A DNA stretch of 64,000 bases, from contig CM067307.1 in NCBI GenBank assembly GCA_034231615.1, forward strand, positions 5,566,647 through 5,630,646, given 5' to 3'. The translations under genes and the position numbers were made by a program. Under the pieces are notes generated by a model that saw only the letters and a list, made by a program, of their open reading frames with translations, was not told the origin of the DNA and ran no database searches. Origin of the DNA: Meghimatium bilineatum (Eukaryota > Mollusca > Gastropoda > Stylommatophora > Philomycidae). Positions 383 to 39,236 of this stretch are shown in pieces. The number at the start of each line of letters is the position of its first letter. Position 1 is the stretch's first letter.

Positions 383-506
383 CTGTAATGTAACAATGCA
401 TACAAGGCTTAGCAAAATGGACAATTCCGGGTCACGTGCCTTAAGCTCCTCAAAATTAAACTTTCGAAGTGAAGACATGTTTAAACGTGAAATTTTCCAT
501 GGCACC
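383..506 (-). CDS. GPCR exon 7 (end of intracellular loop 3, start of TM6)
   Basis: 124 nt with acceptor TTTTTTTTCAAATAAG before 506 and donor TTACAG|GTAAGTC at 383. One base completes Arg1505, then 41 codons to phase 0. A basic, polar stretch (SSLRKFNFEELKARD) passes into LSILLSLVCIVTLQ, the expected start of TM6. The remaining TM6, TM7 with its NPxxY-type motif and the C-terminus should lie to the left of the window. An RTE-like fragment on the other strand overlaps only the intron beyond the donor. Confidence 0.77.
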
Positions 507-3500: not shown

Positions 3501-6500
3501 ATGACAATGATGACGATGGTTATGATGATGATGAAGTAATCCATGTGAGCTAGTAGTTCTGGACAGCCTAAGCATTTCTGATATAATCACAGATCCTAAT
3601 CATTTGATTAACAGAAGTGACCACCCGAACTCGTATAAGGTTTCTTGTCTCAAAGGCATGGTTATATTATTGGATGGGGGGGGGGGAAGCGATTATGGAT
3701 ACATGTTTCGTCCTATAGAGTGAAGTACTCCAGTGTGGTCAATGACCTATGATCATGACAATCTGCCAGAAGCGAAGTATAGAGATGTATACGGATCCAC
3801 AAGAACCATTACTTTCAATAGTAAAACACCAAAATCGTATGGTTTAGACATGTATGCCGAAATGTTTCCCTGTCACAAACAATACTGAAGGAAACGGTCG
3901 AAGATGGAAGAAGCAGAGGAGGAAAAGTAAAAGAATAGACAAAATGAAGAAATGGACAAGACACGATTTATGTCCACACTCGTCCGTATCGTTGAAGATG
4001 TTCCTACGTCCATCACAAGTGATGCTGACCATCTTTTACATCCAGTTTTGAAAATTCAATTAGAATTGTGACCATGCATAATAGTTCGTAGATGGCTAAT
4101 GAGCCCTGTTTGAGCTGTAAATGTTCTTGGACAGTTTGGACAAGGAATAACATCGTTGAAGATAGACATCGCTGCAGGATCTTTGTGCTGATGCATCCAA
4201 TGTGATACCCCATACGGCCTGACAGTTGTGGATTTATATATATATATATACATACATACATATAGAAGCGCGGAATATATCTCTGCGTCAACAAGTTCTT
4301 CTGTCAGGCCTGTGGATACATTTGCAGTGATAGTAAATCTAGCCATCTGAAATCCGTCGAAGAAGATAATAAATCTAGTCATCTGAAATCGGCCGAAGAA
4401 GATAATAAATCTAGCCATCTGAAATCTGCCGAAGAAGATAATAAATCTAGCCATCTGAAATCTGCCGAAGAAGGACAATGACGCAGTCTCCGCTGGAATG
4501 CATTTCTTTGTCATTCATCCGTACCATCTGACAAAAAATATTTAGTTAGTTAGTCGTTGGATCATCGTCATTGTACTCCGGACAAGTCCATAGGTGCTCA
4601 GATCTCTCCTTGAGTGTAGCCGCGATTACACGTTGACTGACGGTCCCAGTACGCAGTTGATTGACCATCATTCTTTCTTGCCCACGAAACCGCTCCGTTC
4701 TAGCGTCACCACATTTCAAACCAAATAATACAATAATTTAAAAAATAATAAAAAATAAAAAAAAGGCAGGAAATCGAAACAAGGCGCTGACCGTAGATAT
4801 ATTAGACAAAATGTCTTCGAATTTTCTATAAAACTACATTAGTACTACAATTTATACCAGCTCACTACGGCACCTCTGGTAACAAAAAATCTGGCGAATT
4901 GACAAATACAGGAGGCAACCTCCCTCAGATCCTCGTAACGGCAAAGCTTCAAGGAAGTAAAGACTCTGTTGAAACAATCTATGCGACTTCAATAAAGAAA
5001 ACTAAACCGCAATTACAGCAATGAGTAAGACAACATTAACAAATTGAACAGCAATGAACAGATCACGATATTTCGACTCAGAACGTCACACCGCTTTCTA
5101 AAAGCATGCTTACGTCGAACCGGGATCAGCGAGACTGCGACCTGCTTCTGCGAAGCAGCAAAACAGACTCCAGAACACACATTCAAGAATTATCCCAATT
5201 TCCCTGTTCACAGAATAAAAATTTGACCCAGGTGAGGTTTCCTTTAAAACAAGTTGTGGGAAAGTCAAGATGATTTTTAAAAAAACCATTCTATACATGT
5301 ACTTTAACAATTGATCGATGAAGTTGTGCAGTAGCCTGAAAATGTCATCAGTTGTTGTGTAGTATCATTACGGACGCGTCCTCAGTGGCTGTGTAGTATC
5401 AATATAGACGCGTCTTCAATTGTTGTGTAGTTTCAGGAACATTTTAGATTCGTTTTAGATTCGATAAAACACACTGGTATATGCATTTTCCATGTTGGAC
5501 TAAATTATTAACAATTGATCACAGAAGAAGGACAAGAATGCATTTCTATAGCAGAAAAAAGTGACAATGAAGATATCGTTGTTATTGAATGAAGATATTG
5601 TGTTATTGAATGAAGATAGTGTTGTTATTGAATGAAGATATTGTTGTTATTGAATGAAGATAGTGTTGTTATTGAATGAAGATATTGTTGTTATTGAATG
5701 AATATAGTGTTGTTATTGAATGAAGATATTTAATGCGGATGTAGTGTCTAAGTGCTTTACAATGATTCACCTGGTAAAAATGTAATCCTTCGATGCATTG
5801 TGGAAGGCAGCTGATGTTGTGTTAGTCACTGCTTCGTTGTCCGCATCTTGGAACGCTTCAAACATTTCAATGCTGCCCTGTCTTCCTTCTGTAGATCTGA
5901 TGTCTATATCCTCGCTGTCTGGACTAAGATCAGCGGTGTCAGTTGGCATGTTGGTCTCCGCTGTATGATCAGAGAGACAGAGATAGAGAAAAAGAGTTAG
6001 CTGTAAGAGGAACAAGTAAGAGTACAACCTATCAGAGAGCAAGATGGTTTAGATATACATTGATATAGATTTTATTGCACCATAGAAGTCAGTACCTAGC
6101 TGGGAAGAGAGGGCAAAATAAATTGCAAGTAAAGCCACTGCCCGAGCAAGTAGATTTGCTAAAGACCCTATTATTATATGTTATAATAAGAGAAAAGAAC
6201 TAGATTAGTGAGAAAAGAGAGAGAAATAATAGTTATAACACAAGGTAATTAGATGTATGTGAGAAAATAGAGAGAAATAATGGTTATAACACAAGGTAAT
6301 TAGATGTATGTGAGAAAATAGAGAGAAATAATGGTTATAACACAAGGTAATTAGATATATGTGAGGAGTTAGAGATTACCAGATTACAGAGCTATATATA
6401 TATATATATATAATACCATCATCGGGTGCCATGCCTGCTTGCTTAGGCAATCAAAGCTCTCCACAGCTCTCTGTCTCCCGTTTTATGTATCAAGGACGTT

Positions 6501-9500
6501 GTTGTTTCCCTGCCGTGCCAGGTTGTCAAACTGTCTAATATTTTCTAACGTAGTTGGCGTCTGTCTCTGTTGCCTTCAATCTTGCCTGCTGTGTCTAAGT
6601 TCTCCAAACCTCCCTGTGTCATGAAGTGGCCAAAAAAATGAAGACTGTCTTTTTCCTTGATTAAGCTCCGTTTCGCATTCGACTATTTCAACATCTCCAG
6701 ATTAGTTTTTCTGGCACTCCATGGTATTCTCGGCATTCTTCTGTAGAACCACTTCTCTATTGCCTCAAATTTCCCACTTTCAGTTTCTTTATTGTCCAAG
6801 ACTCGCATCCATATGTTAGTATAGGAGATGTTCCCCAGTTGAGGCGGAAATATTTTTCAGATCGCAACGGCTCCCAGGTCGACCCAGCCTTAAATGGGTA
6901 CCGGATTAATCCGGGAAGTAAAGACTGCGAGGGAGAGGAGATGGCTACCGCCCTCATTTGCAGAGCCTCTGAAATATGAGATTGCTAACATCTCACACCC
7001 CTACGGCATTAAAAAATGATATTGGTTACTTTAATTTTGTATAGGAGATATGTAACACCGAAGAACTCTCTTTCTCACCCTCTAATGACACGGTAATATT
7101 ACACAATATATTTTTCATTTTTCTGAATAGTGTTTTTGCCTGCCCTATTCCGCTTTTTATTTCTATTGAACTTCTTCCATCTGCTGTATATATTTCTATA
7201 TATTTCATATATTATATATTTTTATATATAAAAAATGTATATATATCGTGCCCAAATTTCTGTCATTCTGTGAATGTACCCGCTATCACACCCGGTGCCG
7301 CCTTCTTCACTGTGTAGTATATCAATTGTCCTTATTTGTTATAACCACATCTCTTGTCAATACTGTGTCATCAACCTCAGCGATGCTTGCCAATGAGTCT
7401 AACCTTTCGTTGCCTTTGAATCCTGAATGACAACGGGAGCATATCCATTATCAACTTTCAACAACCTATATGTTCTGTGTCATGTGACGTATTCCTTCCA
7501 GAACGTTGTCTTCCCAATGAACTCTCTGAACCTCTCTCTGTCTTGGGCGATGCGGCTTGCATTTTCTAGCGATGTATTCATGTTATATTAAATGTCGTCA
7601 GTCCATCGTCTTCTTGGTCTGCCCCTTCTCCTCTTTCCAGGTACTCTTCCCTCCATTATTTGTCGTTCTAAACAGTTATGTCTCTTTATATGACCAAACA
7701 CGCGTAGTTTTCTTTTTGTTATTGTGTTTAGTAACCAACACTCTGGAATATTCAATGTGTTTATAATATCTGAGTTTTGTTCCTTCCATGATATTCTAAG
7801 TATCTTCCTGTAGCATTTCAGCTCGAAGGCGTTGATCCTCTTTGCCGCTGTTTTAGAGTCCATGTTTCACAGCCGTATATTGCAACCGGAAAAATAAAAG
7901 TTCGTAACATTAGCACTTTCGTTTCTATTTTGTTGTTTTTCCATATGTTTTTCAGCCGTGTTATTTTGCAATATGCCATTGCCAATCTCTTCCTTATTTC
8001 TGCCATGCAGTCTCCTGCACCGTTATGTTTGCTCCTAAGTATTCAAATTTATCCACACATTCTATCTCGGTATTGTCTTATGTTCTGTAGCGTTATCAAT
8101 TTCTAAACAAGCACATTGGTTTACCCTGAAAGACGTATTAACGTAACAAGTCTCATGCTATTGTAAGGTCGAGGAAGATCAAGGAATGGCGCCATCGCCA
8201 CCGAGCAAATTTAATAAGCAACACCACAAGTAGGCGACACTAGTCTTTCGGTTTCTGGTCAAGCAGGTGGATTGCTTATGGGAAACCCGTGGACTATGGG
8301 AAAACCGTGGACTATGGGAAAACCGTGGACTATGGGAAAACAGTGGACTATGGAAAAACCGTGGACTATGAAAAAACCATGGACTATGGGAACACCGTGG
8401 ACTATGGGAAAACCGTGGACTATGGGAAAACCGTGGACTATGGGAAAACCGTGGACTATGGAAAAACCGTGGACTATGGGAAAACCGTGTAGTATGAAGC
8501 TAGTGTAATACTCAGCTTACGGTTGCCTTGTTTGTTTGAGAACCCCAGAAATTGCGAACAATTAGCTCTTATTTCTTATGTGCATTGGGGTGGTTTTTCT
8601 GAGCCTTGACCTTTAAATTTACACATATTCAGACGTGTTTAACTTATGCAAATAAGCACATGAGCTGTCACAAACACACACACACATACACACACATGCC
8701 ATTGTGTTGCTGAAATGCGAAAGGTAAGCATATAATGGTAACACTGTTAACTGTTATTAAGAAGGTGAACATAGACTGGTGACACTGTTATGCGGAAGGT
8801 GAGCATAAACTGGTGACACTGTTATGCGGAAGGTGAGCATAGACTGGTGACACTGTTACTCGGAAGGTGAGCATATACTGGTGACACTGTTATGCGGAAG
8901 GTGAGCATAGACTGGTTATACTGTTAACTGTTATGCAAGTGGCGACTAAAGATAATTTAGAGGTGAGGGTTGTCTGTTCCATCCCCAAAAGGTCAAATTA
9001 ACCCATAAACCCCGCTGAAGTCGTGTGATACTGGCCTACATATAACAATAGAGCTGTAAATCATAATACAACGTTTTTTCCATGTTCCAGAGTGCACCCT
9101 GCGAGTCTGCAGGAGTGTGAGAACAAATTCATACCGAAATACACTTTCAATTAATAACTCACTCTCTTTGAATAAACTTACCTGCAGTTCGTGATGTCTT
9201 AATTCTGCACAGTTTAGCGTTTGCTGTTTTATTTCCCTGAACATACTCTGAATACATTCCTTTCGTTGCGTTACCGATATACTTTGAATGCTCTAACTGC
9301 TGACCTGCCACCTTCTGCAGCTTTTCCCGCTTCCTTCTTTCACAGTCTGGACATCTATACGAGTCTTCTAGCCCATGCAAATGCATCTTGTTCATATCAA
9401 TAGGTATATCACCCGACAAAATATCTTGGTAGATGCCTAGTTCTGCCAGAAGTGCCCTGCATGTCACACTCATAGATTCAAATATTTGATACGTCGTCGT

Positions 9501-12500
9501 CGCAGCGTCCCGCGCTCTTGCTTTCTGATCAGAATTAATCACTTCCTGTAGCTCCTGTTTGTATTTCATATTGACAAAGTCTTGCATGGATTTGTCAAAA
9601 GCGAAGTGATTAATTTTCTGCGGGATACACTTTGTTTTATTTAGCACATTGTTGTCCTTACTTTTATCTAAACCTTCTGGGAAGTTTAGATTGTCTGTAC
9701 CAGTTGTCTGAACAGATGCTTCTGTAATTCCTTTATATTTTTCATTCGTATCACTTATTTCGAGTGCATCCCTTTGTGTACCAAAATGTATTAAATTATC
9801 CGTGTCCTTAAAATCAGCTACGTAATTGTCGCTGGGTTCTTCACATCCTTTAATAGAAAAATTCGTGTTAACCCTTTCAGTTCGTTTCATCTTCGTATGG
9901 ATATCGTTTTCAGAAGATATACTAGAACAGTCAGGTTGTTCGCTGGGCTCTTCAGTTTCAAAATTGTAAACTTTCTGAATGTCTCCACTACTCCTGTTCT
10001 CAGATAATAGTGCAGTGTAATCTACATGACTTTCTACAATTGAAGATGTATAAGTAAACAGATTTGATTTAACAGCAGCCATACTTTCAGTTGAGGTATA
10101 CTCATCTATGTTATTGTCTTCATTTTTCAGATTAATTGTCTCACTTTTTGTATTCGGGTATTTGGGTTTTGAGTTAACGAAAGTATTTGCCTTTCGGACA
10201 GAATGCAGTACTTCTGCTTTGTTGATGGAATATTCTTGGCTATTGCCAGTAGTCATCTCTTCTATATTCTCATGAAAGCTTTCTCCTAAAGGTACACACA
10301 GACGGTTAGAATCGGTATTTAGGTTCTCTGCAAACTCTTTTAGGATAGTGTCTAATGGATGTATTTGGTGGTTGAGACATTTACTGGTATTTTCTTCTAA
10401 ATATGTCTTAAGTTGCCCCGCGTGCATACATCTGGCTGCATGCGTCAAACTATTTGTTATTCTTGAATATTCCTGATTTTTTAAATCTGCCCCAGGTATA
10501 TCAATAGATGTACTTAACTGTCTTCTATTCAAATAAGTTCCATTTGGTTTGTTTTCATGCTCTTTTCTTTTTGCTTCCTTCAGAGAGTTGTCTTCTGCTA
10601 CATGTACAGACACTGGAACGGAAATTACCTTCTTGTTTAACTGATTCCTTGAGCTTCGAGTATTTTTTTCCATTAAATTGATACCATAAAAGTCAAACCA
10701 GTTTTGCTTGGCACGAGCGAGAGCTTTGGAAGATGGCATACTATGGACATAGCTCTCTAAGACACTTTCGTCATTCTGGCAAGGTTTTAAGCTATCAATT
10801 TTATTGCTTGAATGCATTTCACATTCATTAATCGCATATGAGCTTGTGGGATTTATATCGTAGAATTGAACCCAATTCTCTACAGCAAGATCCATTTCTG
10901 ATTTCGACTGTTCATCATTCCTGCAGTCGCTCAACTGACCACTGGTATTATCTACGTTACTTCTAGCGCCATCATATACCTTTGACCTCTCATTATTAGC
11001 GTAAAATAGATCCTGAATTATAGAAATAGACTCCTTTTCTTTAGAATACCTACCAGGCTCACATTTCGCTGTACCTATAGTCGCATCATATTCTGCTATA
11101 TCAGACTTGAAAGATACACGGCTTCGATTTTCTAACCCATTTCGCTTCTCAAACACTGCTTTTGCTTCCGTAGATTCTGGTAACGTTGGAGCACATTTGC
11201 CATCGCTTCGTGTAGTAACTTTTGTAGAAATCCCACCAACTCTGCACCTTTTTCTTGATATACCAAACGTACGATCATGATCGATTTTGCATGTCCCTGC
11301 ACTGTTGTTGTCATTCTGAAAACTCTTGTCAGGATTCTGACAACATTCGCATCCGTCATTATGTTGTTCTTCTTCGTCCACTTCCAAATGATTACTTGTT
11401 TGATGCGGTTGTTTTTGCTGTCTACCTTTCCAATCGTGCCTATTTGCTGCGAATAAGTTTGTATTACAACTAGTGATACACTGATTCACTAACTGATTAT
11501 CAGAACTGCCAGCAGGATCACTTGAACTGAATTGTGTTTTACTGATGAGATGCTGCTGAGTGTTGACGAGGCCAACGTATTTTTTAGACTTGCTCTCCAG
11601 TGAATTCGTTGATGAGTATAATTCTTTTTCAACTGTACCAATAGACAACTCCTTGTCTAAGTCTCCGGAATGATGCTTGCTTGTGTCTATGGTGTTAGAA
11701 CTTTTAGTGTGCCTTACATTGGTCTCATTAATAGCTAAATATTTCTCAGTGTTAACCTGACCACAACATTTATTGTTATCGTCTACATTTAGTGTTGTGC
11801 CTTTATTTTGATTAGAGATCTGAGATTTTGAACTTCTTCCTGATGTTTGACATGAGCCCTCAGATTGACTCTCATCATCCACAACGCCATCTGTTCCCCT
11901 AAAGAGAGATTCCTCAGACATACTCAAACAAGATCTAAGAGTATACAGAGAGTCTGTGTGCTGTTTGAGATTTGGTTGAGGGATTTCAGCCAGTCCATCG
12001 TCAGACACAGATAAACATGTTGGTAATATATCTTCTGCAGACTCAATGAATGCGTCGTCTTCTTCTTTAGCTTCATGTATGGTCTCAACAGGTAAATCAT
12101 TTACGTAGAAATATTTTTGATGTTTACCTTTGCATAGTGACATTTTTCTCCCAGGTGATTGATTGTTTGCTGTAGAAGTTTCTATATTGTAGTCACATTT
12201 CGATTCTCGATATTGATTATCTACGATAAGTCTATTTACTTGTGTACTCTTCAAACTGTAGTCGGGTGTTTGAATTAATTCATTGGTGGCTTCATACATG
12301 GGTCCATCTCCTGGTAGCCATGTTTTCATGCCGATTCCTAGCGTGCTCTTTATTAATTTATTCGGCTTGAAATTGTTATTATCGATACCGCATGTTTGAT
12401 ATTTGTTTTGATTTCTGGGGAGAATATCTTCGTTGCTGTCAGCCAGTTTCATTGAATTCTCTTTCAGTTCCGCTTCGGAAGTTTCTGGGTAACGTTCATG

Positions 12501-15500: not shown

Positions 15501-18500
15501 GAAACTATAACTTAAGTCCCTGGCCCTTATAAGAACATATGTCAGGGATGAATTTTCGTTGTCCCTTATAAGAACATATGTCAGGTATGAATTTTCGTTG
15601 TGCCTTATAAGAACATATGTCAGGGATGAATTTTCGTTGTCCCTTATAAGAGCATATGTGAGGGATGAATTTTCGTTGTCCCTTATAAGAACATATGTCA
15701 GGGATGAGTTTTAATATTATTTTTTTTATGGTTTAACCTTTTTTTAATGGACAATATCACAGTATTATTAACCTTCTGCTCTAGTTGTCCAAGTGATCTC
15801 ATATCGCTATTTCCTGCTGCCAGAAAGTTGAAATGAGATTCGACCCAACAGTGTTCTAGCACACTCCAAGTGAATAGTTTATTTCCTGCTGCCCGACAGT
15901 TGAACTATGTCATGATTCGAACTAACAGTGTTCTAGCACACTTCAAGTTCCATCAATCGCATTTGATGTTGTATCTATCCTCAGAAACTACAAGCGGTTT
16001 GCTATTATTTCCTATGTGCTATAGCGTGATTTCTTCAGAGCTTTTGTTCATTTGTTCATAACAAGAAGACGAACTCTAAACGGCGGGCAATGTTTTGAGA
16101 AGAACTCTAACAATAGGGGATACATTCTAGATTTGTCAATATCATCTAAAACTGGGCCATGATCTCTGGGAAGGAAGGATAACCAAATATGCATTCACGT
16201 CCATTCAACGGAGTCTCTTCAATTATAAAGGCTACCATGCTTATCGGATTCTGGCATCTCCCAGGGGAGTTGTCACGGCCCACGCAGAGTTGCTTTTCAC
16301 CACATCCCATGTTACACATGTTCAGTCATGAAACCCCGTACACTTTGGCATATAGGACACTGATCAGGGCTGGATTCCACCTGGTTCCCCCAGCTGGATA
16401 TTCACTTATGGGTTCTTTAATTGTTGCACAACAAACGGATACGTAATTGTATATATGAAATGATATGCAGCCTCCACAAGAAGGAATCTCACTGTATTGA
16501 CGGGCCATCTACTGATAATGTACCGTTGCATGAAGGCGTATCTGATATGGCAATCGTGAAAAATTGAGTTCTTTCACACGCATATAAATCGTAGTATAGA
16601 TGCATCATTAGTTGCCGTTTGTCCTGTGTTTATAAGTTTATGTCCTTTCGAGTCTCAAAGTAAATCCCATCACTTATACTAGCAGGATGTATCGTTTTCT
16701 TCTACGATCGATCACCTTGCCTTCTGTTCGATATCGATCAGATATAGAGCGGCTTAGTTTATGTCGGTGTTTGCTTTTGTGAATGGGTTCTATAACGAGA
16801 TTGCGACCGTTCACACATGACCTTTTCCCCGTTGATCACTATTTATATACTTGGAGTCGCATGCCAATATTAACCAAGGTGACTTCACGTATATAAATAG
16901 TGACCAATGGAAAATCTCGAGAATAATTTAAAAAGTAACAAATTGAGGCATAATTAATTTAGCGAACAGGTCTTCTATACAATCGAAGGTCACAGCTTAT
17001 CTGTGTGATACATAGATTTTATCGTGTAGCATAAACACCTTGTCTCATCTAATTCCCCATGAACCGGTGTATTCGACAATGACCGGCCTCGGGTATTAAG
17101 ACCTGTGTACAGAAAATGTAAGCATTCTTCGAAGGTCGATTTTGATTATTTCCGCGCATTCGATAGTCGGCCTTGGTTAATTTTGGCATGCAACTCCAAG
17201 TTTATAAATAGCAACCAACGAAAACACGACAATAATCGTAATGAATGAAGTTTATTGCCGGCATTCTCGATTCAAAAGTAGACTAGAATTTTGTGCAACG
17301 TGCCTGAACGTTTATTTTTAAATGACTGCCCGCATATTTGCTCAATGTGACGAATATGATGAATGTATTGGCAACCCTGGTTGTGACGAATATGGTGAAT
17401 GTATTGGCAACCCTGGTTGTGACGAATAAAATGAATGTATTGGCAACCCTGACTGACGAATATGATTAATGTATTGTAACGTTTAAGGATTCCTGCCTGC
17501 GTCGCTACTTAACCCTCTATTATACCATTTAAGATTTTCTATGACAAAAAATTGTTTATTGAATATGTCAACTGTATGAATATTTCAACTGATCAGAAAT
17601 GCATGATTTGTAAAACAGAAATAGTGAAAGTTGTATATTAACGTTTCCATGGTAGTGGTACCCCATTTCTCTATAATACGTTTTTTGGGTGGGTAGGTAG
17701 ATGGTAAGTTTACTTCTTCAATGAAGAGGCGCGGCCTTTCAACCAGCGGACAATGTCCAAGTAGGCTATATCAGGACACACAACTAAAAATAATTGAAGT
17801 CAAAAGACCCATAAAGTATCCTATTTTTTGGAAGGAAAGGAATTTATTTTTTTATTTAAAAAAAAAATTAAGACATCAAAAGACTAAAGTGGTATCAATA
17901 TATGTAATTTTAGAAAACTAACTGTAGTGAAACTACGTTAGAACAATTTTATTTTTAGAATAATATACTTAGTAAAACATCATTAAAAACTTGTTATTTA
18001 CACAATTTTGCTTTGGCCAAAATTACTTTTTTAAGAAAAGGTAAATGCATGCATAATATTACACAAATGTATCGCCTTGAAAGTTTAAAGGATCCGAGGG
18101 GAAAAAAAACAAACTTCTGGACTTAAAGGGGAACAACTGTTAAAATTGTGAACACAAAATGACCAATATATAGGCTACGCGTCGAATCAGTTAATTTTTA
18201 GAAAGAAAAAAAAACATACCAAAATAACCTCACCATGTCATCTAGTGTTAGTGGAACCGGAAAACATTATATTTAGAAATTTGGTCTCCGAAGACGCTAT
18301 ACTAATTAATTGTAGCTGACCACATCATCTATCTAAATAACTGACCATATCCTCTATCTAAATAACTGACCATATCCTCTATCTAAATAACTGAAACTGA
18401 CCATAGCATATTGCCTATCTATTTGACTTACCACAGCATCTATCTAAATAACTATTTACTTACATCTGTGACAAGGAAGCTGCCAACAAAACTGACCACC

Positions 18501-21500
18501 CAGGTCAGGAACAGGATCAACTTCTCAACATGCCAGTGCAGTGTGCAGCGTGTGTAGAACATACCCCTCTGTAGTGCCCTGTGTCTGTCATTACACATGA
18601 TGTGTGAGAGAATCAGCTGCTCGACTAGGAGAGCGTTTGTGAACACTGTACACACCTGATGGATAAATGGGGAATAGAAGATGTGAACACTGAACACACC
18701 TGGTGGATAAATGGGGAATAGAAGATGTGAACACTGAACACACCTGGTGGATAAATGGGGAATAGAAGATGTGAACACTGTACACACCTGATGGATAAAT
18801 GGGGAATAGAAGACGTTAACACGGTACACACCTGGTGGATAAATGGGGAATAGAAGATATGAACACTGTACACACCTGGTGGATAAATGGGGAATAGAAG
18901 ATGTGAACACGGTACACACCTGGTGGATAAATGGGGAATAGAAGATGTGAACACGGTACACAACTGGTGGATAAATGGGGAATAGAAGATGTGAACACGG
19001 TACACACCTGGTGGATAAATGGGGAATAGAAGATGTGAACACGGTACACACCTGGTGGATAAATGGGGAATAGAAGATGTGAACACGGTACACACCTGGT
19101 GGATAAATGGGGAATAGAAGATGTGAACACGGTACACACCTGATGGATAAATGGGGAATAGAAGATGTGAACACGGTACACACCTGATGGATAAATGGGG
19201 AATAGAAGATGTGAACACGGTACACACCTGATGGATAAATGGGGAATAGAAGATGATAAACATGTTGAAGCATGGAGCAGTGAGGAAACGACTGACATCA
19301 CTAAGTTGACAAACGGTTGACACCACTAAGTTGACAAACGGTTGACACCACTCAGTTGACAAACGGCTGACACGACTGAGTGGACAAACGGTTGACATCA
19401 CTAAGTTGACAAACGGCTGACACGACTGAGTGGACAAACGGTTGACATCACTAAGTTGACAAACGGTTGACACCACTCAGTTGACAAACGGTTGACACCA
19501 CTAAGTTGACAAACGGCTGACACGACTGAGTGGACAAACGGTTGACATCACTAAATTGACAAACGGTTGACACCACTACGTTGACAAACGGTTGACACCA
19601 CTACGTTGACAAACGGTTGACACCACTACGTTGACAAACGGTTGACATCACTAAGTTGACAAACGGTTGACACGACTGAGTGGACAAACGGTTGACATCA
19701 CTAAATTGACAAACGGTTGACACCACTACGTTGACAAACGGTTGACACCACTACGTTGACAAACGGTTGACACCACTACGTTGACAAACGGTTGACATCA
19801 CTAAGTTGACAAACGGTTGACACCACTACGTTGACAAACGGTTGACACCACTACGTTGACAAACGGTTGACACCACTACGTTGACAAACGGTTGACATCA
19901 CTACGTTGACAAACGGTTGACACCACTACGTTGACAAACGGTTGACATCACTACGTTGACAAACGGTTGACACCACTACGTTGACAAACGGTTGACATCA
20001 CTACGTTGACTAACGGTTGACACCACTACGTTGACAAACGGTTGACATCACTACGTTGACAAACGGTTGACACCACTACGTTGACAAACGTTTGACATCA
20101 CTACGTTGACAAACGGTTGACACCACTACGTTGACAAACGGTTGACGTACTTATTATATTATAAAATATTATATTGTTTGTACTGTATTTATCGAATTTA
20201 TGTTATTACATACATATGCTTTGGTTTCGACCAAGTTGTTAAATTGGGATTTGACTGCAGTATCCTAGGACCCTCACGTCCTGTCAAAGTGCAGCACGCA
20301 CTTCTGGGCCAACTATCGTGGCAATCTGTTGTCAGATATGTTTACACATCTGCGGTATTGTTACACTCATTGTTACATTCATTGTTACAGTCATTGTTAC
20401 ACTCATTGTTACATTCATTGTTACAGTCATTGTTACAGTCATTGCTATACTCATTGTTACACTCAATGTTACACTCATTGTTACATTCATTGTTACAGTC
20501 ATTGTTACAGTCATTGTTACACTCATTGTTACACTCATTGTTACACTCATTGTTACATTCATTGTTACAGTCATTGTTACAGTCATTGCTATACTCATTG
20601 TTACACTCATTGTTACACTCATTGTTACATTCATTGTTACAGTCATTGTTACACTCATTGTTACATTCATTGTTACAGTCATTGTTATACTCATTGTTAC
20701 ATTCATTGTTACACACATAATGTTCCCACCAACGAAGATCTGCAACAAACTGACAAAGGTGCAATGTCTACTGACCTGCATCTCTACGTTATCCACGGGG
20801 ACCATGTAACAGGACACAAAAGTATGACAAGACATTTGACAGAAGACATAAGTAAGAAAAGACATTTGACAGAAGACAAAAGTAAGACAAGACATTTGAC
20901 AGAAGACAAAAGTAAGACAAGACATTTGACAGAAGACAAAAGTAAGACAAGACATTTGACAGAAGACAAAAGTAAGACAAGACATTTAACAGAAGACAAA
21001 AGTAAGACAAGACATTTGACAGAAGACAAAAGTAAGACAAGACATTTGACAGAAGACAAAAGTATGAAATTAAGAAAAGAGATACAGTGACAATGATGAT
21101 GTTTTCCACAGGTGACAGGTTGTCAATATATTCCATAAATTTCCTTAGTCGCCTCCTACGACGTGCATGGAAATAATACAGTGCCCTGTTCTTTACACAC
21201 CTGAACTAGAAGCCAAGGTCTTTGGTTGTTACACTTGCAGGAAATATAGAGAGATTTCACTTAGTTAACACATACCTGACAAATGATAGATCATTTTGTT
21301 ACACTGACGCAAAATATAGAGAAGTCTCAGTTAACATCTGACAAATGATAGATCATTTTGTTACACTGACGTAAAATATAGAGAGATTTCACTTAACACA
21401 TACCTGACAAATGATAGGCCATTTTGCAAGAAATGACATCTTTGTCATCTCATCAATCACAGCTATTATAACCAGAAAACCTAAAACATATGTTTTAATA

Positions 21501-24500: not shown

Positions 24501-26588
24501 TGCAACTCATCATTGACGTGTGTGCCGTACTTGCAACTCATCATTGACGTGTATGCCGTACTTGCATCTCATCATTGACGTGTGTGCCGTACTTGCAACT
24601 CATCATTGACGTGTGTACCGTACTTGCAAATCATCATTGACGTGTGTGCCGTACTTGCAAATCATCATTGACGTGTGTGCCGAACTTGCAACTCATCATT
24701 GACGTGTGTGCCGAACTTGCAACTCATCATTGACGTGTGTGCCGAACTTGCAACTCATCATTGACGTGTGTGCCGAACTTGCAACTCATCATTGACGTGT
24801 GTGCCGAACTTGCAACTCATCATTGACGTGTGTGCCGCAATTTCACCACATGAACAATGTGTGTACCGGACTTTCAACCCATGAACAATGTGTGTACCGG
24901 ACTTTCAACCCATGGACAATGTGTGTACCGGACTTTCAACCCATGAACAATGTGTGTACCGGACTTTCAACCCATGAACAATGTGTGTACCGGAATTTCA
25001 ACCCATGATCAATAACATTCAGATTGAATGGCTGCAACCCGGAGAATGGATTGATCATATTGAGGGGTTTCACACTCCAAGGACCTTACGTGGATATTCT
25101 GTGCTGGCCATGATGAAGTTTAATAATTGGATCGGACCAGCTGGTTTCAAGAGCACGCTGTTAGGACAGACGATGATATTGAAGAAGAATATTGTGGATT
25201 CCCAAAGTATGCATCATTTGGGCGAGGATACTTAATGGATGGTCCTACATACCCTTGAACATCTGCTGAAATACCTATGGGGGTGTCCAGGGTGTGCAAA
25301 TGACTGTTCATAATCAGTCAAATCATTCACAATATAGAGACCACAGTGAAATTTGATATAGAATCGAGTGTAATAACGATATCCATAATCTACAAATAAA
25401 TACAGCTACAATTTGATATAGAATCGAGTGTAATAACGATATCCATAATCTACAAATAAATACAGCTACAATTTGATATAGAATCGAGTATAGTACTGAT
25501 GGTCTCCCATGCCACAGTGCTAGGTTACCAAGCATCATCATCGTGCCTGTTGTTACAAAGTGGTCCATCTTTCCCCTTCTCATGGTGTGTTTTAAATAAA
25601 TGTGGATTGTTTTTTTCTGATGCGAATAAACATCCGGTACAGCTTTCTTTAATTAGCTTCTTTCCAGATATTTTCATTGACCAGTTGTCCATGGTGTTCT
25701 TAACATTCATTGGTATAAAACAACATCTATGCTGCCTCAATATACTTCTCATTATTCAGTATCAATATTGAATAAAATTGGTAGCAGATCCTATTCAGGA
25801 CGTGGCTATCTACCCAGCATTATTTGGCTGTAGTGATTTTCTTGGCAATATAAATATGTTCAGTAGTTTGCCAATGCTTTCTGAACGGTCCGGATGCACA
25901 ACTGCCTGTTCCATTCCGCCACAGAGACGGACATATTATAACATTATATCAATATAGTATATCAATACTACAACATTATATCGATATGTTAAATCAATAT
26001 TAATACATTGTATCAATATAAATTATATTAAATCAATATTACAACATTGTATCAATATAAATTATATTAAATCAATATTACAACATTGTATCAATATAAA
26101 TTATATTAAATCAATATTACAACATTGTATCAATATAAATTATATTAAATCAATATTACAACATTGTATCAATATAAATTATATTAAATCAATATTACAA
26201 CATTGTATCAATATAAATTATATTAAATCAATATTACAACATTGTATCAATATAAATTATATTAAATCAATATTACAACATTGTATCAATATAAATTATA
26301 TTATATCAATATTACAACAACTAAATGAATAAATACATACTGATCATGAGGTCGGCTGTAGCTAAGTGCACAACGAAGAGGTTGAAGATTACTCTCAATC
26401 GATTATCCCTGAAGAAGGCAGCAATGACAGAGCTATTACCAAGAATGCTGAAAATAAGCACAGCGATAATGCACAACAATGGCACAGACTCATATTCGTA
26501 ACGGTCATCAAATTCGGGATCTAGTTCATCGTTCATGTTAAAGAGGCTCACTGTTTGGAATGTTTCATTACGCAACATTGCTGGCCGT
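383..26588 (-). CDS. Class A GPCR-like gene with giant third intracellular loop; seven exons, 3' end off the window
   Basis: Hand-assembled from exons 26588-26341 (ATG at 26578), 21462-21404, 18655-18464, 15462-15320, 12873-9182, 5960-5771 and 506-383. Exon lengths from the ATG sum to 4,638 nt, 1,546 codons without a stop, and every join has matching intron phase. Seen: TM1 about residues 32-56 with GN (N48), TM2 with ATAD (D76), C98 placed 25 residues before R123 of a DRH motif (the spacing of class A C3.25 to R3.50), W151 in TM4, C176 in the second extracellular loop as disulfide partner, TM5 about 184-208, start of TM6 about 1532. The loop between TM5 and TM6 is about 1,320 residues. Odd: no Asp at 3.32 (Thr105), which argues against an amine receptor; DRH instead of DRY; no obvious TM5 proline. 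Ligand and subfamily are not recognisable. A plasma-membrane receptor is the expectation for the family; signalling is inferred only. Confidence 0.87.
520..1240. other. Intronic sequence without recognisable gene
   Basis: AT-rich intron of the GPCR gene. It has a short TA run near 580 and simple duplications of AAAAAAAGTGCAACAGAA near 870-900. No coding or RNA gene seen. Confidence 0.5.
1243..1371. repeat. 26 bp minisatellite, 5 copies
   Basis: Unit GTGGCACCCCTACGTCCCTG followed by ATTGGC. The copies are nearly identical, and the unit is GC-richer than its surroundings. Confidence 0.9.
1440..1685 (-). mobile_element. tRNA-derived SINE
   Basis: Read on the minus strand, the head near 1590-1680 has pol III A-box-like GGTAGCTTAGTTGATAG and B-box GGTTCGAAATC, followed by about 150 bp of unrelated body. 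Acceptor-stem pairing is poor, so it is a SINE head and not a working tRNA gene. Confidence 0.6.
1704..1800. mobile_element. hAT-end relic
   Basis: CCAGGGGTTCTAGAACTGTGG resembles a hAT terminal repeat. No matching right end is obvious within the next few hundred bases. Confidence 0.35.
1800..2050. other. No feature recognised
   Basis: AT-rich intronic sequence between the hAT-like relic and the 31 bp array. Confidence 0.4.
2055..3080. repeat. 31-32 bp minisatellite, about 31 copies
   Basis: Unit TAGCTACTATATAAGGTAGA followed by TGTTCTACATG (first copies: CCATTTTACATG). Two monomer types occur in blocks and the last copies decay. Each junction holds the perfect palindrome CTACATGTAG and a TATATAAG box. 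Confidence 0.95.
3081..3410. other. No gene recognised
   Basis: AT-rich intronic sequence; GACGTTTCGATCAAATTATC near 3131 resembles dispersed repeat debris. Confidence 0.4.
3411..3540. repeat. GAT/GTT trinucleotide microsatellite
   Basis: Interrupted GATGATGATGTT repeats. The His-rich reverse reading is a by-product and not a gene. Such GAT runs also terminate several LINE fragments in this window. Confidence 0.9.
3790..4030 (+). mobile_element. RTE-like retrotransposon fragment
   Basis: The plus strand, with frame breaks, reads SLSQTILKETVEDGRSRG and RNGQDTIYVH, the basic tail region of an RTE-type ORF. Strongly decayed. Confidence 0.6.
4056..4270 (-). mobile_element. Non-LTR element C-terminus with zinc finger
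   Basis: The minus-strand frame ends IPCPNCPRTFTAQTGLISHL followed by R and a His-containing tail, the C2H2-like finger that closes many metazoan non-LTR ORFs, preceded by HWMHQHKDPAAM. A short TA microsatellite interrupts the upstream part. Confidence 0.7.
4320..4470. repeat. 36 bp minisatellite, 4 copies
   Basis: Unit AATAAATCTAGCCATCTGAA followed by ATCTGCCGAAGAAGAT, adjoining the zinc-finger LINE fragment. Confidence 0.9.
4520..4720. repeat. Dispersed repeat shared with 52665-52760
   Basis: TCATTGTACTCCGGACAAGTCC and the following bases recur in diverged form at 52690 (GTCATTCCGGACAAGTTC). Likely a SINE body; no head identified here. Confidence 0.45.
4860..5215 (+). mobile_element. Non-LTR element fragment, C-terminal Cys/His segment after RNase H
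   Basis: The plus strand encodes ITIFRLRTSHRFLKACLRRT and then CFCEAAKQTPEHTFKNYPNF. This is the C-x-C...H pattern seen after the RNase H domain of jockey/I-type elements. Frames upstream are broken. Confidence 0.65.
5227..5576. other. No gene recognised
   Basis: Contains two or three diverged repeats of about 52 bp around GTTGTGTAGTATCA (5350-5435). Otherwise featureless intronic DNA. Confidence 0.4.
5577..5745. repeat. 22 bp minisatellite beside GPCR exon 6 donor
   Basis: About 7 copies of GTTGTTATTGAATGAAGATA plus GT or TT. The array begins about 25 nt downstream (minus strand) of the exon 6 donor. Confidence 0.9.
5771..5960 (-). CDS. GPCR exon 6 (acidic distal part of intracellular loop 3)
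   Basis: 190 nt with a long pyrimidine tract and acceptor CTGATCATACAG before 5960, donor TTTACCAG|GTGAATC at 5771. Two bases complete the phase-1 codon (Ala1442), 62 codons follow, and AG is left (phase 2). The peptide is acidic (SPDSEDIDI, then EMFEAFQDADNEA) with no hydrophobic helix. An array of about 22 bp repeats begins about 25 nt downstream of the donor. Confidence 0.8.
6190..6370. repeat. 51 bp minisatellite, about 3 copies
   Basis: Unit GTGAGAAAATAGAGAGAAAT followed by AATGGTTATAACACAAGG and TAATTAGATGTAT; about 230 nt upstream of the exon 6 acceptor. A TA run follows at 6391-6412. Confidence 0.9.
6430..6830 (-). mobile_element. RTE-like retrotransposon fragment
   Basis: Minus strand, frames broken: ILTYGCESWTIKKLKVGN, WFYRRMPRIPWSARKT, then a FGHFMTQGGLENL-type segment. 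A second copy of the same family is at 61500-61735. Confidence 0.7.
6825..7015 (+). mobile_element. SINE family A, 5'-truncated copy
   Basis: Starts inside the tRNA-like head (CCCCAGTTGAGGCGG) and continues through GCGATCGCAACGGCTCC-like, TTAAATGGGTACCGG and GAGAGGAGATGGCTACCGCC segments to CACACCCCTACGGCATTAA. Near-identical body at 58595-58835. It abuts the LINE fragment. Confidence 0.75.
7020..7485. other. No gene recognised
   Basis: AT-rich with a short TATATA segment near 7195-7245. No open frame with recognisable content. Confidence 0.4.
7489..8095 (-). mobile_element. RTE-like retrotransposon, C-terminal fragment
   Basis: Minus strand in order: ECVDKFEYLGANITVQE, MAEIRKRLAMAYCKITRLKN, FPVAIYGCETWTLK, INAFELKCYRKILRISWKE, FGHIKRHNCLERQI, GKRRRGRPRRRWTDDI and IGKTTFWKEYVT. 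One stop and one frameshift. The same family, better preserved, is at 34465-35175. Confidence 0.88.
8274..8495. repeat. 18 bp minisatellite, 12 copies
   Basis: Unit TATGGGAAAACCGTGGAC. As an 18-mer it stays open in several frames (MGKPWT repeats), which is a by-product. Confidence 0.95.
8505..8615 (-). repeat. Dispersed repeat family G, 3' part
   Basis: GTTTGAGAACCCCAGAAATTG and TATGTGCATTGGGGTGGTTTT match the reverse complement of 21890-21985. It directly abuts the 18 bp array. Confidence 0.6.
8735..8940. repeat. 34 bp minisatellite, 6 copies
   Basis: Unit GGAAGGTGAGCATAGACTGG followed by TGACACTGTTATGC; about 240 nt downstream (minus strand) of the exon 5 donor. Confidence 0.9.
9182..12873 (-). 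CDS. GPCR exon 5: 3,692 nt exon encoding nearly all of the giant intracellular loop 3
   Basis: Acceptor TTTTATTCTCTTCAG before 12873 and donor ACTGCAG|GTAAGT at 9182. One base completes Arg211, 1,230 open codons follow, and one base is left (phase 1). It follows TM5 directly with a basic RRHRK start. The sequence is hydrophilic, rich in Ser, Asn, Thr, Asp, Glu and Lys, with no transmembrane segment, and looks largely disordered. Noticeable elements: two related motifs, NWVQFYDIN (about 10856-10885) and NWFDFYGIN (about 10685-10715), a Cys cluster (GCECC, near 11345), and near the end YRCPDCERRKREK (about 9320-9360), a CxxC pair followed by a strongly basic run. I recognise no domain family. 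The open frame, flanking splice sites and phase fit support a real exon. Confidence 0.9.
13060..13215. repeat. About 33 bp minisatellite, 4-5 copies
   Basis: Unit around ATCGATAATATGTGAAACTA; about 190 nt upstream of the exon 5 acceptor (minus strand). Confidence 0.8.
13290..13420 (-). repeat. Dispersed SINE-like repeat with GCGGCTAAGGAAAG core
   Basis: On the minus strand the core GGCATGTCAAAGAAGGCGGC followed by TAAGGAAAGATTGGG matches 21135-21240 over about 100 bp, and shares the gtc-taagaggcgactaagga core with 23220, 28420, 41465 and 43425. Confidence 0.6.
13421..13695. other. No gene recognised
   Basis: A short hydrophobic open frame (13315-13605, plus) has no acceptor, donor or family resemblance. 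Treated as chance. Confidence 0.4.
13700..13845. repeat. About 27 bp minisatellite, 5 copies
   Basis: Unit ATTACAGGAGGGGGCTGAAT followed by TATCA, with variable G-run length. Confidence 0.85.
13850..14160. other. No gene recognised
   Basis: AT-rich intronic sequence of the GPCR gene between two arrays. Confidence 0.4.
14165..15345. repeat. 36 bp minisatellite made from the GPCR exon 4 donor junction
   Basis: About 15 regular copies (14805-15320) and 6 or so diverged ones (14165-14290, 14650-14800). In minus orientation the unit is the exon end TATATCGTATTCGACTTCAG followed by the intron start GTATGTATGATTACTG. The copy nearest the exon carries the real donor at 15320. Variants include CTAGAG and CTTGAG before GTATGT. 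A LINE fragment (14395-14640) splits the array. Confidence 0.95.
14395..14640 (+). mobile_element. RTE-like fragment inserted within the 36 bp array
   Basis: Plus strand reads TKWFGHLIIMEPDCIHKQ, then ARGRRRPK and RWKDDI with stops, the usual RTE tail. Array monomers lie on both sides, so the array predates the insertion. Confidence 0.7.
15320..15462 (-). CDS. GPCR exon 4 (extracellular loop 2 cysteine, TM5)
   Basis: 143 nt: 47 codons plus AG (phase 2). The acceptor is TTTGTGTTGCACAG before 15462 and the donor is CTTCAG|GTATGTATG at 15320. It encodes the second extracellular loop with a single Cys (C176), then TM5 (about residues 184-208) ending IIFDF. The usual TM5 proline is not visible. 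The donor is repeated about 15 times downstream in a 36 bp array. Read-through into any later donor meets a TGA in the array within three codons, so only this first donor joins in frame to the next exon. Confidence 0.85.
15515..15715. repeat. 39 bp minisatellite, 5 copies, close to the exon 4 acceptor
   Basis: Unit CCCTTATAAGAACATATGTC followed by AGGGATGAATTTTCGTTGT; begins about 50 nt upstream (minus strand) of the acceptor at 15463. Confidence 0.92.
15716..16830. other. No gene recognised
   Basis: Includes a duplicated segment of about 85 bp (15808-15870 and 15878-15945, TTTCCTGCTGCC and GTGTTCTAGCACACT). Otherwise intronic sequence with no supported feature. Confidence 0.45.
16830..17225. 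repeat. Inverted repeats carrying TATAAATAG boxes
   Basis: 16836-16888 and 17163-17222 are inverted copies of about 57 bp (CCAAG, TATAAATAG and GGCATGC in each). The first also forms a local hairpin with 16889-16918 (CACTATTTATATAC against GTATATAAATAGTG). This may be a foldback or MITE-like element; no target duplication identified. Confidence 0.6.
17335..17475. repeat. 36 bp minisatellite, about 4 copies
   Basis: Unit TGACGAATATGATGAATGTA followed by TTGGCAACCCTGGTTG. Confidence 0.88.
17480..18310. other. No gene recognised
   Basis: AT-rich intronic DNA with homopolymer A/T runs. A 67-codon plus frame at 17721-17921 has no resemblance to a known family. Confidence 0.4.
18315..18455. repeat. 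25 bp minisatellite starting at the exon 3 donor
   Basis: About 5 copies of TGACCATATCCTCTATCTAA plus ATAAC. On the minus strand the array starts within about 10 nt of the donor at 18464. Confidence 0.88.
18464..18655 (-). CDS. GPCR exon 3 (TM3, DRH motif, TM4)
   Basis: 192 nt, 64 codons, phase 0 at both ends. The acceptor is CCATTTATCCATCAG before 18655 and the donor is CACAGAT|GTAAGTA at 18464. It encodes TM3, the helix-ending NDRHR motif (R123), a basic second intracellular loop, and TM4 with LTWVVSF. The acceptor sits at one end of a 44 bp minisatellite whose units repeat both the intron 3' end and the first 17 nt or so of this exon, so 13 further acceptor-like copies lie upstream. The exon start used here is the only one that gives the class A spacing from C98. 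Confidence 0.83.
18640..19255. repeat. 44 bp minisatellite made from the GPCR exon 3 acceptor junction
   Basis: 14 junction copies including the real one. Minus-strand unit: intron end TTCTATTCCCCATTTATCC followed by ACCAG, then exon start GTGTGTACCGTGTTCACA. No stop codon occurs in any minus frame across the array, so the 161-283 residue open frames seen here are repeat artefacts, though inclusion of three units (132 nt) would keep the receptor frame. Confidence 0.96.
19290..20140. repeat. 25 bp minisatellite, about 34 copies
   Basis: Unit TTGACAAACGGTTGACACCA followed by CTACG. The left third has CTAAG/CTGAG variants and a composite of about 50 bp; the right two thirds alternate CACCACTACG and CATCACTACG. 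Confidence 0.95.
20350..20715. repeat. 12 bp minisatellite, about 30 copies
   Basis: Unit CATTGTTACACT with TC/AG variants. Being a 12-mer without stops it is open in several frames on both strands (up to 253 codons); these are not genes. Confidence 0.95.
20818..21068. repeat. 30 bp minisatellite, 8 copies
   Basis: Unit AGTAAGACAAGACATTTGAC followed by AGAAGACAAA. Each unit has a plus-strand AAAAGTAAGA that resembles a donor, but no plus-strand exon is evident. Confidence 0.93.
21130..21245 (-). repeat. Dispersed SINE-like repeat (same family as 13290-13420)
   Basis: TTTCCTTAGTCGCCTCCTAC and the following TGCATGGAAATAATACAGTG match 13300-13400. Orientation minus. Confidence 0.6.
21245..21425. 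repeat. About 57-62 bp repeat, 3 copies, made from the GPCR exon 2 donor junction
   Basis: Each copy, read minus, repeats the exon end CTATCATTTGTCAG and the intron start GTATGTGTTAA. The middle copy reads CAGATGTT and so has lost its GT. The copy at 21404 is the functional one. Confidence 0.85.
21404..21462 (-). CDS. GPCR exon 2 (end of TM2, extracellular loop 1, TM3 cysteine)
   Basis: A 59 nt microexon with acceptor TTCTGGTTATAATAG before 21462 and donor TTGTCAG|GTATGTG at 21404. It supplies 2 nt to complete the phase-1 codon (Thr80) and then 19 codons ending KWPIICQ. The Trp is typical of extracellular loop 1. The Cys falls 25 residues before the DRH Arg of the next exon, which strongly supports the join. 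The exon ends in phase 0. Its donor end has been tandem-copied into the neighbouring intron (21245-21425). Confidence 0.82.
21560..21690 (-). mobile_element. SINE family A, truncated copy with tRNA-like head
   Basis: Minus strand: GGATAGTGGTCACCGCACTG (A-box region), TGGGTTCATTCCC (B-box), TTGAGGCGGAAATA, GATCGCAACGGCTCCC and then GGGTAC, where similarity ends. Lies in the GPCR intron. Confidence 0.7.
21695..21990 (+). repeat. Dispersed repeat family G, longest copy
   Basis: GTGGTTGCGTCTGTGGGTCT to GGCCCATTATACA recurs at 49325-49440. Its other end, CCTGGGGTTCTCAAGCAAAC, recurs reversed at 8530-8610. Noncoding. Confidence 0.65.
22005..22205 (+). repeat. Dispersed repeat family F
   Basis: GATACCATGGTTGCTCGTGC, TGTGGTCCTGCT and TTAGTTTCCAGCC recur at 48065-48270; a shorter version is at 61030-61160. 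Confidence 0.65.
22210..22595. other. No gene recognised
   Basis: Pyrimidine-rich stretch at 22235-22350, then ordinary intron. GAAACGTCTTATATCTT near 22452 may be another repeat fragment. Confidence 0.4.
22600..23060 (+). repeat. 24 bp minisatellite (15 copies) that grew from a SINE 3' end
   Basis: 22618-22700 matches the element E/D body (GTAAATAATGACACAACGCA, CTCCGAACTA). The unit CTGCAGGAGTTTGAGACTGC plus TAAT is the SINE end (CTGCAGGAGTTTGAGAATGA) multiplied. The last copy runs into GTTTGAGAATGAATGCAC, the normal element end. The 24-mer is open in several frames (137-188 codons), not genes. Confidence 0.85.
23065..24020. other. No gene; scattered repeat fragments
   Basis: Includes a core-repeat fragment at 23210-23270 (GTCGCAAGAGACGATTAAGT), a hAT-like end at 23565 and a family I copy at 23760-23900 shared with 54445-54590 (TTGATTTCATT, CTCTGTCCCTCT). 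Confidence 0.5.
23565..23700. mobile_element. hAT-like end relic
   Basis: GTTCTCAACCTTTTCAGACGG is nearly the same as the left end of the element at 51784. The rest is degraded and no target duplication is visible. Confidence 0.35.
24025..24836. repeat. 31 bp minisatellite, about 26 copies
   Basis: Unit GCCGAACTTGCAACTCATCA followed by TTGACGTGTGT, with GTAC/GAAC variants arranged in blocks that themselves repeat. Confidence 0.95.
24837..25012. repeat. Second 31 bp array contiguous with the first, 5 copies
   Basis: Unit AACCCATGAACAATGTGTGT followed by ACCGGACTTTC: same period, same TGTGTRCCG phase, but diverged sequence. Confidence 0.9.
24981..25235 (+). CDS. Unassigned open frame, possible exon or repeat-derived fragment
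   Basis: After the 31 bp array, an open frame of about 70 residues beyond the array-derived start shows non-repetitive, fairly balanced composition (IEWLQPGEWIDHIEGF, then RGYSVLAMMKFNNWIG), ending at a TAA. An acceptor-like AACATTCAG lies at its start, but the upstream tract is array sequence. I recognise no domain. It could be a fragment of an unlisted mobile element. Confidence 0.2.
   Translation: MCVPEFQPMINNIQIEWLQPGEWIDHIEGFHTPRTLRGYSVLAMMKFNNWIGPAGFKSTLLGQTMILKKNIVDSQSMHHLGEDT
25335..25490. repeat. 60 bp repeat, about 2.5 copies
   Basis: Unit starts ACAATTTGATATAGAATCGA and ends TACAAATAAATACAGCT. Confidence 0.88.
25495..25775. other. Short open frames, no recognised gene
   Basis: Open on both strands for 75-90 codons. 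One minus reading ends in a GATGATGATG run like the LINE tails here, so it may be a mobile-element remnant. Confidence 0.3.
25778..25880 (+). repeat. Dispersed repeat family H
   Basis: TTATTTGGCTGTAGTGATTT, CTTGGCAATATAAATATGTT and CAGTAGTTTGCCA recur at 46066-46165. Confidence 0.7.
25935..26312. repeat. 39 bp minisatellite, about 9 copies, beside the exon 1 donor
   Basis: Unit ATCAATATTACAACATTGTA followed by TCAATATAAATTATATTAA. On the minus strand it begins about 30 nt downstream of the GPCR exon 1 donor. Confidence 0.93.
26341..26588 (-). CDS. GPCR exon 1 of the coding part (N-terminus, TM1, most of TM2)
   Basis: The ATG is at 26578-26576. An acceptor (TTAATTTCGCAG) ends at 26589, so only 10 nt of 5' UTR belong to this exon and at least one upstream noncoding exon is expected. 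It encodes 79 residues plus one base: an acidic extracellular N-terminus with an N-glycosylation sequon (NET at residues 4-6), TM1 with the conserved GN, then TM2 with LATAD. The exon ends ATGATCA followed by GTATGT at 26340, phase 1. No signal peptide is visible, as is usual for class A receptors. A decayed LINE begins about 100 bp upstream, so the promoter is not adjacent. Confidence 0.85.
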
Positions 26589-35539: not shown

Positions 35540-35879
35540 AGTAAGGTCTTAAACATGGTGCCATACTATTTGATGAAGCTTATAAAGTTCTAAATTTATT
35601 ATTAATGTTGCATACAATGTAAACATTTTGTAAACTTCTGTAGTAAATAAAACCCCAGATACATGCACATTTTTCAAAATAAAAATAAAAATCTTTGCAT
35701 TCCAGATGAGGACTAAAAAACCCCCAGACATAGTGAATCAAAATGCAGTTGTGGCATCACTGTTGATCAGATGTGGACTTTTCTCATGGAAGAGCACCAC
35801 CACTTTTCCGGAAGCTGTGTGTAGCCACAATTAATTCTTACTTAATAATATATTTACATAACAAGCCGAACGAGATCAG
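35540..35879. other. Upstream region of the MYORG-like gene
   Basis: AT-rich. No TATA box or initiator can be assigned with confidence. CGAGATCAG just before the ATG could be a 3' splice site. Confidence 0.35.
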
Positions 35880-38800: not shown

Positions 38801-39236
38801 CTGTATATCTACCTTCTCTGTATCACTCCTACAAACATTTCCTGTATATCTACCTTCTCTGTATCACTCCTACAGATATTTCTTGTATAACTATTTTCTA
38901 TGTATCACTCCTACAGTCATTCATGTCTATTATTCATTTAAATATTTAACTTTGTCTGTTGCAGGCATACCTATTGCTCGACCTCTTTGGTGGATTGCTC
39001 CGGAGGATAAGATTGCACAGTTCATTGATTGTGAGTTCTTTCTTGGTAACAGCCTCCTGGTTGCTCCAGTTTTGTATGCTGATGCTAGATTCCGTGATGT
39101 GTACTTGCCTGACGGCAGCTGGTGGAGAGATCAACTTCGAGGACAGCTCTATGAAGGGGGACAATGGCTCCGTAGATATAAAGTTGGTCTTTATGAGATT
39201 GCTACTTTCAAACGTGACATCAACCCACGTCCCTAG
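35880..39236 (+). CDS. MYORG-like glycoside hydrolase family 31 membrane protein, probably catalytically dead
   Basis: Two exons, 35880-37797 and 38965-39236. The donor AAGTTAG|GTAAGTT and acceptor TTGTCTGTTGCAG join in phase 1 to give 729 residues, close to the roughly 714 of human MYORG. A short cytosolic N-terminus is followed by a type II anchor (about residues 29-49). The lumenal part shows MYORG/GH31 landmarks: NWYGGGG (187-193), KWPLNR, IPTVLTYGLMGYPF (542-555), GIPDKELYIRWFQLM (576-590) and, in exon 2, ARPLWWIAPED and LLVAPVL. Known: MYORG is an ER/Golgi alpha-galactosidase whose nucleophile lies in FKFDAGE. Here the aligned segment reads GFRFSGG (461-467), Ser for Asp. The acid/base Asp region reads GPMLSSW (526-532), and the usual PDMVGGN is GPIGGIN. 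I infer loss of hydrolysis with fold retained. ATG at 35880 is the first in frame, just after a CAG, so an upstream noncoding exon is possible. Confidence 0.88.
37962..38234. other. MYORG-like intron, first part
   Basis: Unique-looking AT-rich intron sequence after the read-through stop. No further feature. Confidence 0.4.
38240..38560 (+). mobile_element. Non-LTR element C-terminal fragment in the MYORG-like intron
   Basis: QLLWNGHIFHMPDKHLPKRL, FYGELYDGKHSNRG, stop, FKDHLQNYLMHCSIDPSSWK and TTTLDYELGTPRSLLAAL. This is the jockey/RTE tail common in invertebrate genomes, interrupted by two stops. Confidence 0.85.
38770..38935. repeat. 41 bp minisatellite, 4 copies, just upstream of the MYORG-like exon 2 acceptor
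   Basis: Unit TGTATCACTCCTACAAACAT followed by TTCCTGTATATCTACCTTCTC. Pyrimidine-rich, ending about 30 nt before the acceptor at 38964. Confidence 0.9.

Follow-up and report, generated by a model that had tools for sequence, protein, structure and literature searches.

Results

The analysed window is a stretch of 64,000 nucleotides of the Meghimatium bilineatum genome (C10:5566647-5630646; the genome comprises 1.61 Gb in 32 contigs). It carries on its minus strand the predicted gene for a class A receptor. As this gene overruns the left end of the window, four 10-kb stretches leftward were added, and only the nearest of them (L009) was needed to complete it. Seven coding exons lie in the window, from 26578 to 383, and an eighth lies outside, to the left:

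Exon 1, 26341..26578, minus strand: ATG at 26578, N-terminus with one NxT site, TM1 (GN) and most of TM2 (LATAD)
Exon 2, 21404..21480, minus strand: the rest of TM2, the loop that follows it, and Trp and Cys at the top of TM3; entered in phase 1, left in phase 0
Exon 3, 18464..18655, minus strand: TM3, DRH, TM4 with its Trp; phase 0 in and out
Exon 4, 15320..15462, minus strand: loop-2 Cys and TM5; phase 0 in, 2 out
Exon 5, 9182..12873, minus strand: 3,692 nt, the initial 1,230 or so residues of the predicted third intracellular loop
Exon 6, 5771..5960, minus strand: 190 nt, the last part of the loop; the weakest exon call
Exon 7, 383..506, minus strand: the last loop residues followed by the first half of TM6; entered in phase 2, left in phase 0 through the donor GTAAGT
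Exon 8, L009 7970-7770 (2,030 to 2,230 bases left of the window, stop included), minus strand: LTCWLP..., TM7 with QPLLY, stop
Reverse transcriptase fragment, 27097-27474, minus strand: a neighbour of exon 1 on its upstream side (RVT_1, E 2.4e-12)
Glycosyl hydrolase family 31 gene, 35862-39233, plus strand: a TIM-barrel domain at 35862-37958 and a C-terminal domain at 38688-39233, the gene being in two or more pieces; probably MYORG-like
Open frame, 50643-51110, plus strand: presumably resembling a mariner transposase; nothing in Pfam at E 0.001

In the final model of eight exons, every one of the seven junctions follows the GT-AG rule and agrees in phase (phases 1, 0, 0, 2, 1, 2, 0), all exons are open, and the window is free of N. 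The seven exons and six agreeing junctions of the first-pass annotation were thus all recovered on the minus strand. Its exon span held at 383, and at the other end it has to be shortened to the ATG at 26578: position 26588 directly follows a CGCAG that lies upstream. The two ends of the receptor were detected by tblastn with receptors of the same genome, with TM1-TM2 at 26530-26336 and TM6-TM7 in L009 near 7,990-7,790; exon 1, which leaves in phase 1 through the donor GTATGT, matched the paralogue L007 of the same genome at E 2e-06. Exons 2, 3, 4 and 6 were located from their phases and splice scores together with the landmarks of class A receptors. Two candidate assignments were rejected: an open frame at 15480, considered for TM3, carries the loop-2 Cys and TM5 (exon 4), and the DRH stretch at 18589, considered part of a repeat, is exon 3. 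TM6 is split by an intron, since exon 7 ends in LSILLSLVCIVTLQ at its donor and exon 8 opens with LTCWLP after TTTGTTTCCAG. An AATAAA lies 47 bases beyond the stop codon of exon 8.

Two of the exon calls are weaker than the others. For exon 2, the criteria were satisfied in 5 of 100 shuffles, and there is an alternative acceptor that starts the exon at 21462. The acceptor at 21480 adds six residues, gives a slightly higher score against the Pfam profile 7tm_1 (58.3 vs 57.2 bits) and yields a more usual spacing from TM2 to TM3 (D76 to C104); the predicted product then has 1,618 residues, compared to 1,612 with the acceptor at 21462, which reproduces the earlier numbering of C98 and R123. Exon 6 is the sole phase-matching candidate (phase 1 to 2) above the splice-score threshold, and at least one candidate of this kind occurred in 17 of 200 dinucleotide shuffles.

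By its sequence, the gene is that of a class A (rhodopsin-type) receptor with TM1 to TM7. With the loop removed, the product matches 7tm_1 from end to end (58.3 bits, E 1.1e-15, cut-off 30.5, positions 1-260 of 260), in agreement with the class A landmarks described earlier. Scored by exon group, exon 1 alone reaches 23.6 bits, exons 1, 7 and 8 together 28.0, exons 1 to 4 44.2, and all exons without the loop 57.2-58.3; exons 2 to 4 alone give 12.7 bits (E 0.089, not significant) and exons 7 and 8 alone no match. Hydropathy analysis of the model with the shorter exon 2 yields seven hydrophobic segments, TM7 being the weakest (peak 1.28). DRH occupies residues 128-130, and the disulphide cysteines are C104 and C182. 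Reading by eye with the general numbering scheme, we take N1.50, D2.50, C3.25, D3.49-R3.50, W4.50, the loop-2 Cys, CWxP, P7.50 and Y7.53 to be at their expected places. TM5 is devoid of its usual proline. The rest of TM6 and the TM7 expected to the left of the window are provided by exon 8, with CWLP and the stop; TM7 carries QPLLY for NPxxY, with P and Y kept and Q replacing N at 7.49. The C-tail is very short, with 21 residues after QPLLY ending in FMCCHSCR, so that nearly all of the predicted cytosolic sequence lies in the third loop.

The position 3.32 (C3.25 plus seven) is occupied by T111 instead of Asp, which argues against a biogenic-amine receptor. In the comparison of the core (shorter exon 2) with PDB, 236 distinct sequences were found at E 0.001 or better, and among the best 60 of these the best match is the neuropeptide Y2 receptor (NPY2R, E 1.6e-11); the neuropeptide Y2, cholecystokinin-A and orexin receptors are among the best-scoring solved structures, a weak likeness, and since amine receptors are close behind and score nearly as well as the peptide receptors, the comparison assigns the receptor to no subfamily. 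A search of the slug's own genome with a query of 188 residues (exons 1, 7 and 8) revealed no close paralogue: the gene itself was followed by other receptors from E 1.2e-5.

Elsewhere in the genome, very similar amine-type receptors occur in pairs with one member on contig C1 and one on contig C2 (L002/L003, L004/L008 and L005/L006, judged by eye), which look like duplicated chromosomes. Among the matches listed, about 19 single-exon class A receptors are clustered on C7, at about 3.1-5.2 Mb. The only COX1 match in the genome (L033, C2:121989805-121990428) is partial, has five internal TGA codons and lies on a large contig; it resembles mitochondrial DNA that has been copied into the nucleus.

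The outstanding feature of the predicted protein is its third intracellular loop. With the boundaries that we have set, the segment between TM5 and TM6 comprises residues 218-1534, i. e. about 1,317 residues in frame, of which about 1,230 are encoded by exon 5; the insert of about 1,320 residues reported previously, mostly from one exon of 3.7 kb, is thus borne out. Three lines of evidence suggest that exon 5 is a real exon. First, its own frame is free of stops over 1,230 codons, whereas the other five frames contain 130, 73, 62, 70 and 54 stops; the order-0 log10 probability of such an open frame by chance is -39.4. Second, the open frame behaves like that of an internal exon, extending only some 16 codons upstream of the acceptor and six codons downstream of the donor, and good splice sites that fit the phases of the receptor are present at both edges. 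Third, tandem arrays make up 36.6% of the introns (7,891 of 21,540 bases), whereas no array scoring 50 or above lies in exon 5. On the other hand, codon usage, with 5,390 codons from other receptors as the training set, did not favour the frame of exon 5 over the others, which leaves the open frame, the splice sites and the lack of arrays as the basis for this exon.

Several tandem arrays begin at splice junctions, namely at the exon 4 donor (15320-14750), the exon 3 acceptor (18655-19255) and the exon 2 donor (21426-21265); the array units thus carry copies of splice sites. Three of the 13 junctions in the window lie within arrays, which is not above expectation given the array content of the introns.

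S, N, E and K are abundant in the loop (S and T account for 234 of 1,317 residues), and by its charge and hydropathy it is classed as disordered with a narrow margin to the dividing line (0.401 vs 0.422). No hydrophobic stretch resembling a membrane helix was found in it (hydropathy peak 1.05). Relatives of exon 5 were found neither in Pfam (nothing over the cut-off; best DUF1283, E 0.1) nor in PDB (no match at E 10); the own genome returned exon 5 itself plus one row of E 9.8, and of 15 pattern matches in prokaryote genomes none was confirmed. The best pair of repeats of 12 residues in the loop, AVENWVQFYDIN and AKQNWFDFYGIN, exceeded all 30 shuffles; at window lengths of 9, 18 and 30 residues the best pair was equalled in 1, 5 and 3 of 30 shuffles, respectively. 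The motif NWxxFYxIN, which was picked after the fact, occurs at residues 883 and 941. As DNA, it occurs six times in the genome, these two copies included, as compared to ten for a reversed control, as expected by chance genome-wide, and what is notable is only the closeness of the two copies. WxxFY, also chosen after the fact, occurs twice in the loop, a count reached by none of 200 shuffles. Eleven of twelve classes of linear motifs were at shuffle level: CK2, PKA, 14-3-3, SH3, PxIxIT, RVxF, NPxY, YxxPhi, dileucine, LIR and CxxC were not enriched (lowest value 35 of 200 shuffles). Similarly, the 31 arrestin-type phosphorylation patterns in the loop were reached by 86 of 500 shuffles and are not enriched.

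Together, exons 5 and 6 have 3,882 nt (1,294 codons), a multiple of three. Their joint omission, by the splice from exon 4 to exon 7 that the first-pass annotation had considered, would keep a compatible frame (phase 2 to 2) and leave an open receptor of 324 residues, in which the loop has shrunk to about 23; skipping of exon 5 alone would break the frame. Since the skipping of both exons leaves an ordinary receptor, the giant loop may be a cassette that is included optionally.

Discussion

We regard this gene as real, pending RNA, and probably as an extreme variant of the known receptor layout with a long third loop and a short tail. The reading that we favour, and to which we would give somewhat better than even chances, is that of a single-copy class A receptor gene in which a cassette of exons 5 and 6, placed exactly between TM5 and TM6, has enlarged the third loop to about 1,317 residues.

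The comparison with published receptors puts this loop at the end of a series. Third loops of class A receptors are stated to have 10-240 residues (PMC10033409). The previous idea that they reach a few hundred residues at most is contradicted by Drosophila Dm5-HT2B with 563 residues, called extremely long by the authors; the honeybee Am5-HT2B has 399 and Dm5-HT2A 321 residues (PMC5425475). Given these examples, the loop marks the far end of a known layout, and the earlier proposal of a new receptor architecture is not supported. As in the slug protein, over half of Dm5-HT2B is in the third loop (563 of 904 residues) and the C-terminus is short (26 residues; PMC5425475). In contrast, the slug loop is about 2.3 times longer and its receptor has no Asp at 3.32; the likeness noted here is one of layout. 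In the part of the literature covered, we found no third loop above 563 residues, which is weak evidence as such lengths are often not put in words. Among the matches listed for the slug's own single-exon receptors, the largest codon surplus over the profile is about 364 by hand estimate (C15:53803259-53804980), and the loop described here is over three times as long.

What could such a loop do? The muscarinic, D2, D4, alpha2B/C, H1 and H3 receptors recruit arrestin via a long third loop, according to a preprint (PMC13105114), and third loops are described to regulate and limit the access of G-proteins (PMC10033409). Based on these precedents, we infer that the slug loop may be a regulatory and docking region. 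It would be cytosolic, flexible and hydrophilic, and it could take on the work that the C-tail performs in other receptors, i. e. the provision of kinase sites and the binding of arrestin and other partners; moreover, it might gate the access of the G-protein. The muscarinic M2 and other long-loop, short-tail receptors, which according to the preprint combine a long third loop with a C-tail that cannot be phosphorylated (PMC13105114), are similar in this respect, whereas the slug loop differs from this type by its unique sequence and by its size as compared to the 10-240 residues given for class A (PMC10033409). Support for a regulatory and docking role from motifs was sought in the loop and not found, either for arrestin-type patterns or for eleven of the twelve linear-motif classes.

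As the cassette is frame-neutral, splicing may toggle between a receptor with a giant loop and an ordinary one with a short loop. Loop isoforms made by splicing are described for the H3 receptor, with cassettes of up to 116 residues (PMC11274711), and for the long and short forms of the D2 receptor, with cassettes of 24-33 residues (PMC12198306). The slug gene resembles them in having a loop segment that could be skipped, here of 1,294 codons and by prediction only. It is also tempting to speculate, although we would put this below even chances, that the giant loop is present constitutively. The receptor would then carry its own cytosolic platform of some 1,300 residues, which would have to pass between TM5 and TM6, take the place of the C-tail and hold docking motifs of its own, for instance the two copies of NWxxFYxIN, and one polypeptide would serve both as receptor and as signalling scaffold.

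The precedents of D2 and H3 also bear on a less probable explanation, which we consider rather unlikely and which holds that the main product is an ordinary receptor made by joining exon 4 to exon 7, with exons 5 and 6 confined to rare or tissue-specific transcripts. The open join of 324 residues speaks for this explanation; however, exon 4 leaving and exon 7 entering in phase 2 has a chance of one in three anyway and is no proof of skipping, and exon 5, being fully open and free of arrays, is expected to be used in some product. It is improbable that exon 5, perhaps with exon 6, is a separate gene on the same strand inside the receptor gene, or the end of a truncated five-helix product of read-through. 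No homology links exon 5 to receptors, and read-through past its donor would add six residues before a stop; yet the splice sites at the edges of its open frame fit the phases of the receptor, and there is no AATAAA or ATTAAA between 9182 and 8300. Finally, a decaying gene or an assembly artefact, as might be suspected from QPLLY in place of NPxxY and from the dense tandem arrays in the introns, is very hard to reconcile with eight open exons, GT-AG junctions in phase and a window without N.

We thus return to the single-copy receptor gene with a loop enlarged by exons 5 and 6. If transcripts confirm it, the loop would be more than twice as long as the longest that we found in print (563 residues in Dm5-HT2B; PMC5425475) and over five times the range of 10-240 residues stated for class A (PMC10033409). 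The receptor would then offer a natural experiment on the amount of protein that can be placed between TM5 and TM6 in a manner compatible with the helix movement of activation. Moreover, if splicing both includes and omits the cassette, the slug would possess a built-in comparison of long and short forms for the function of the third loop.
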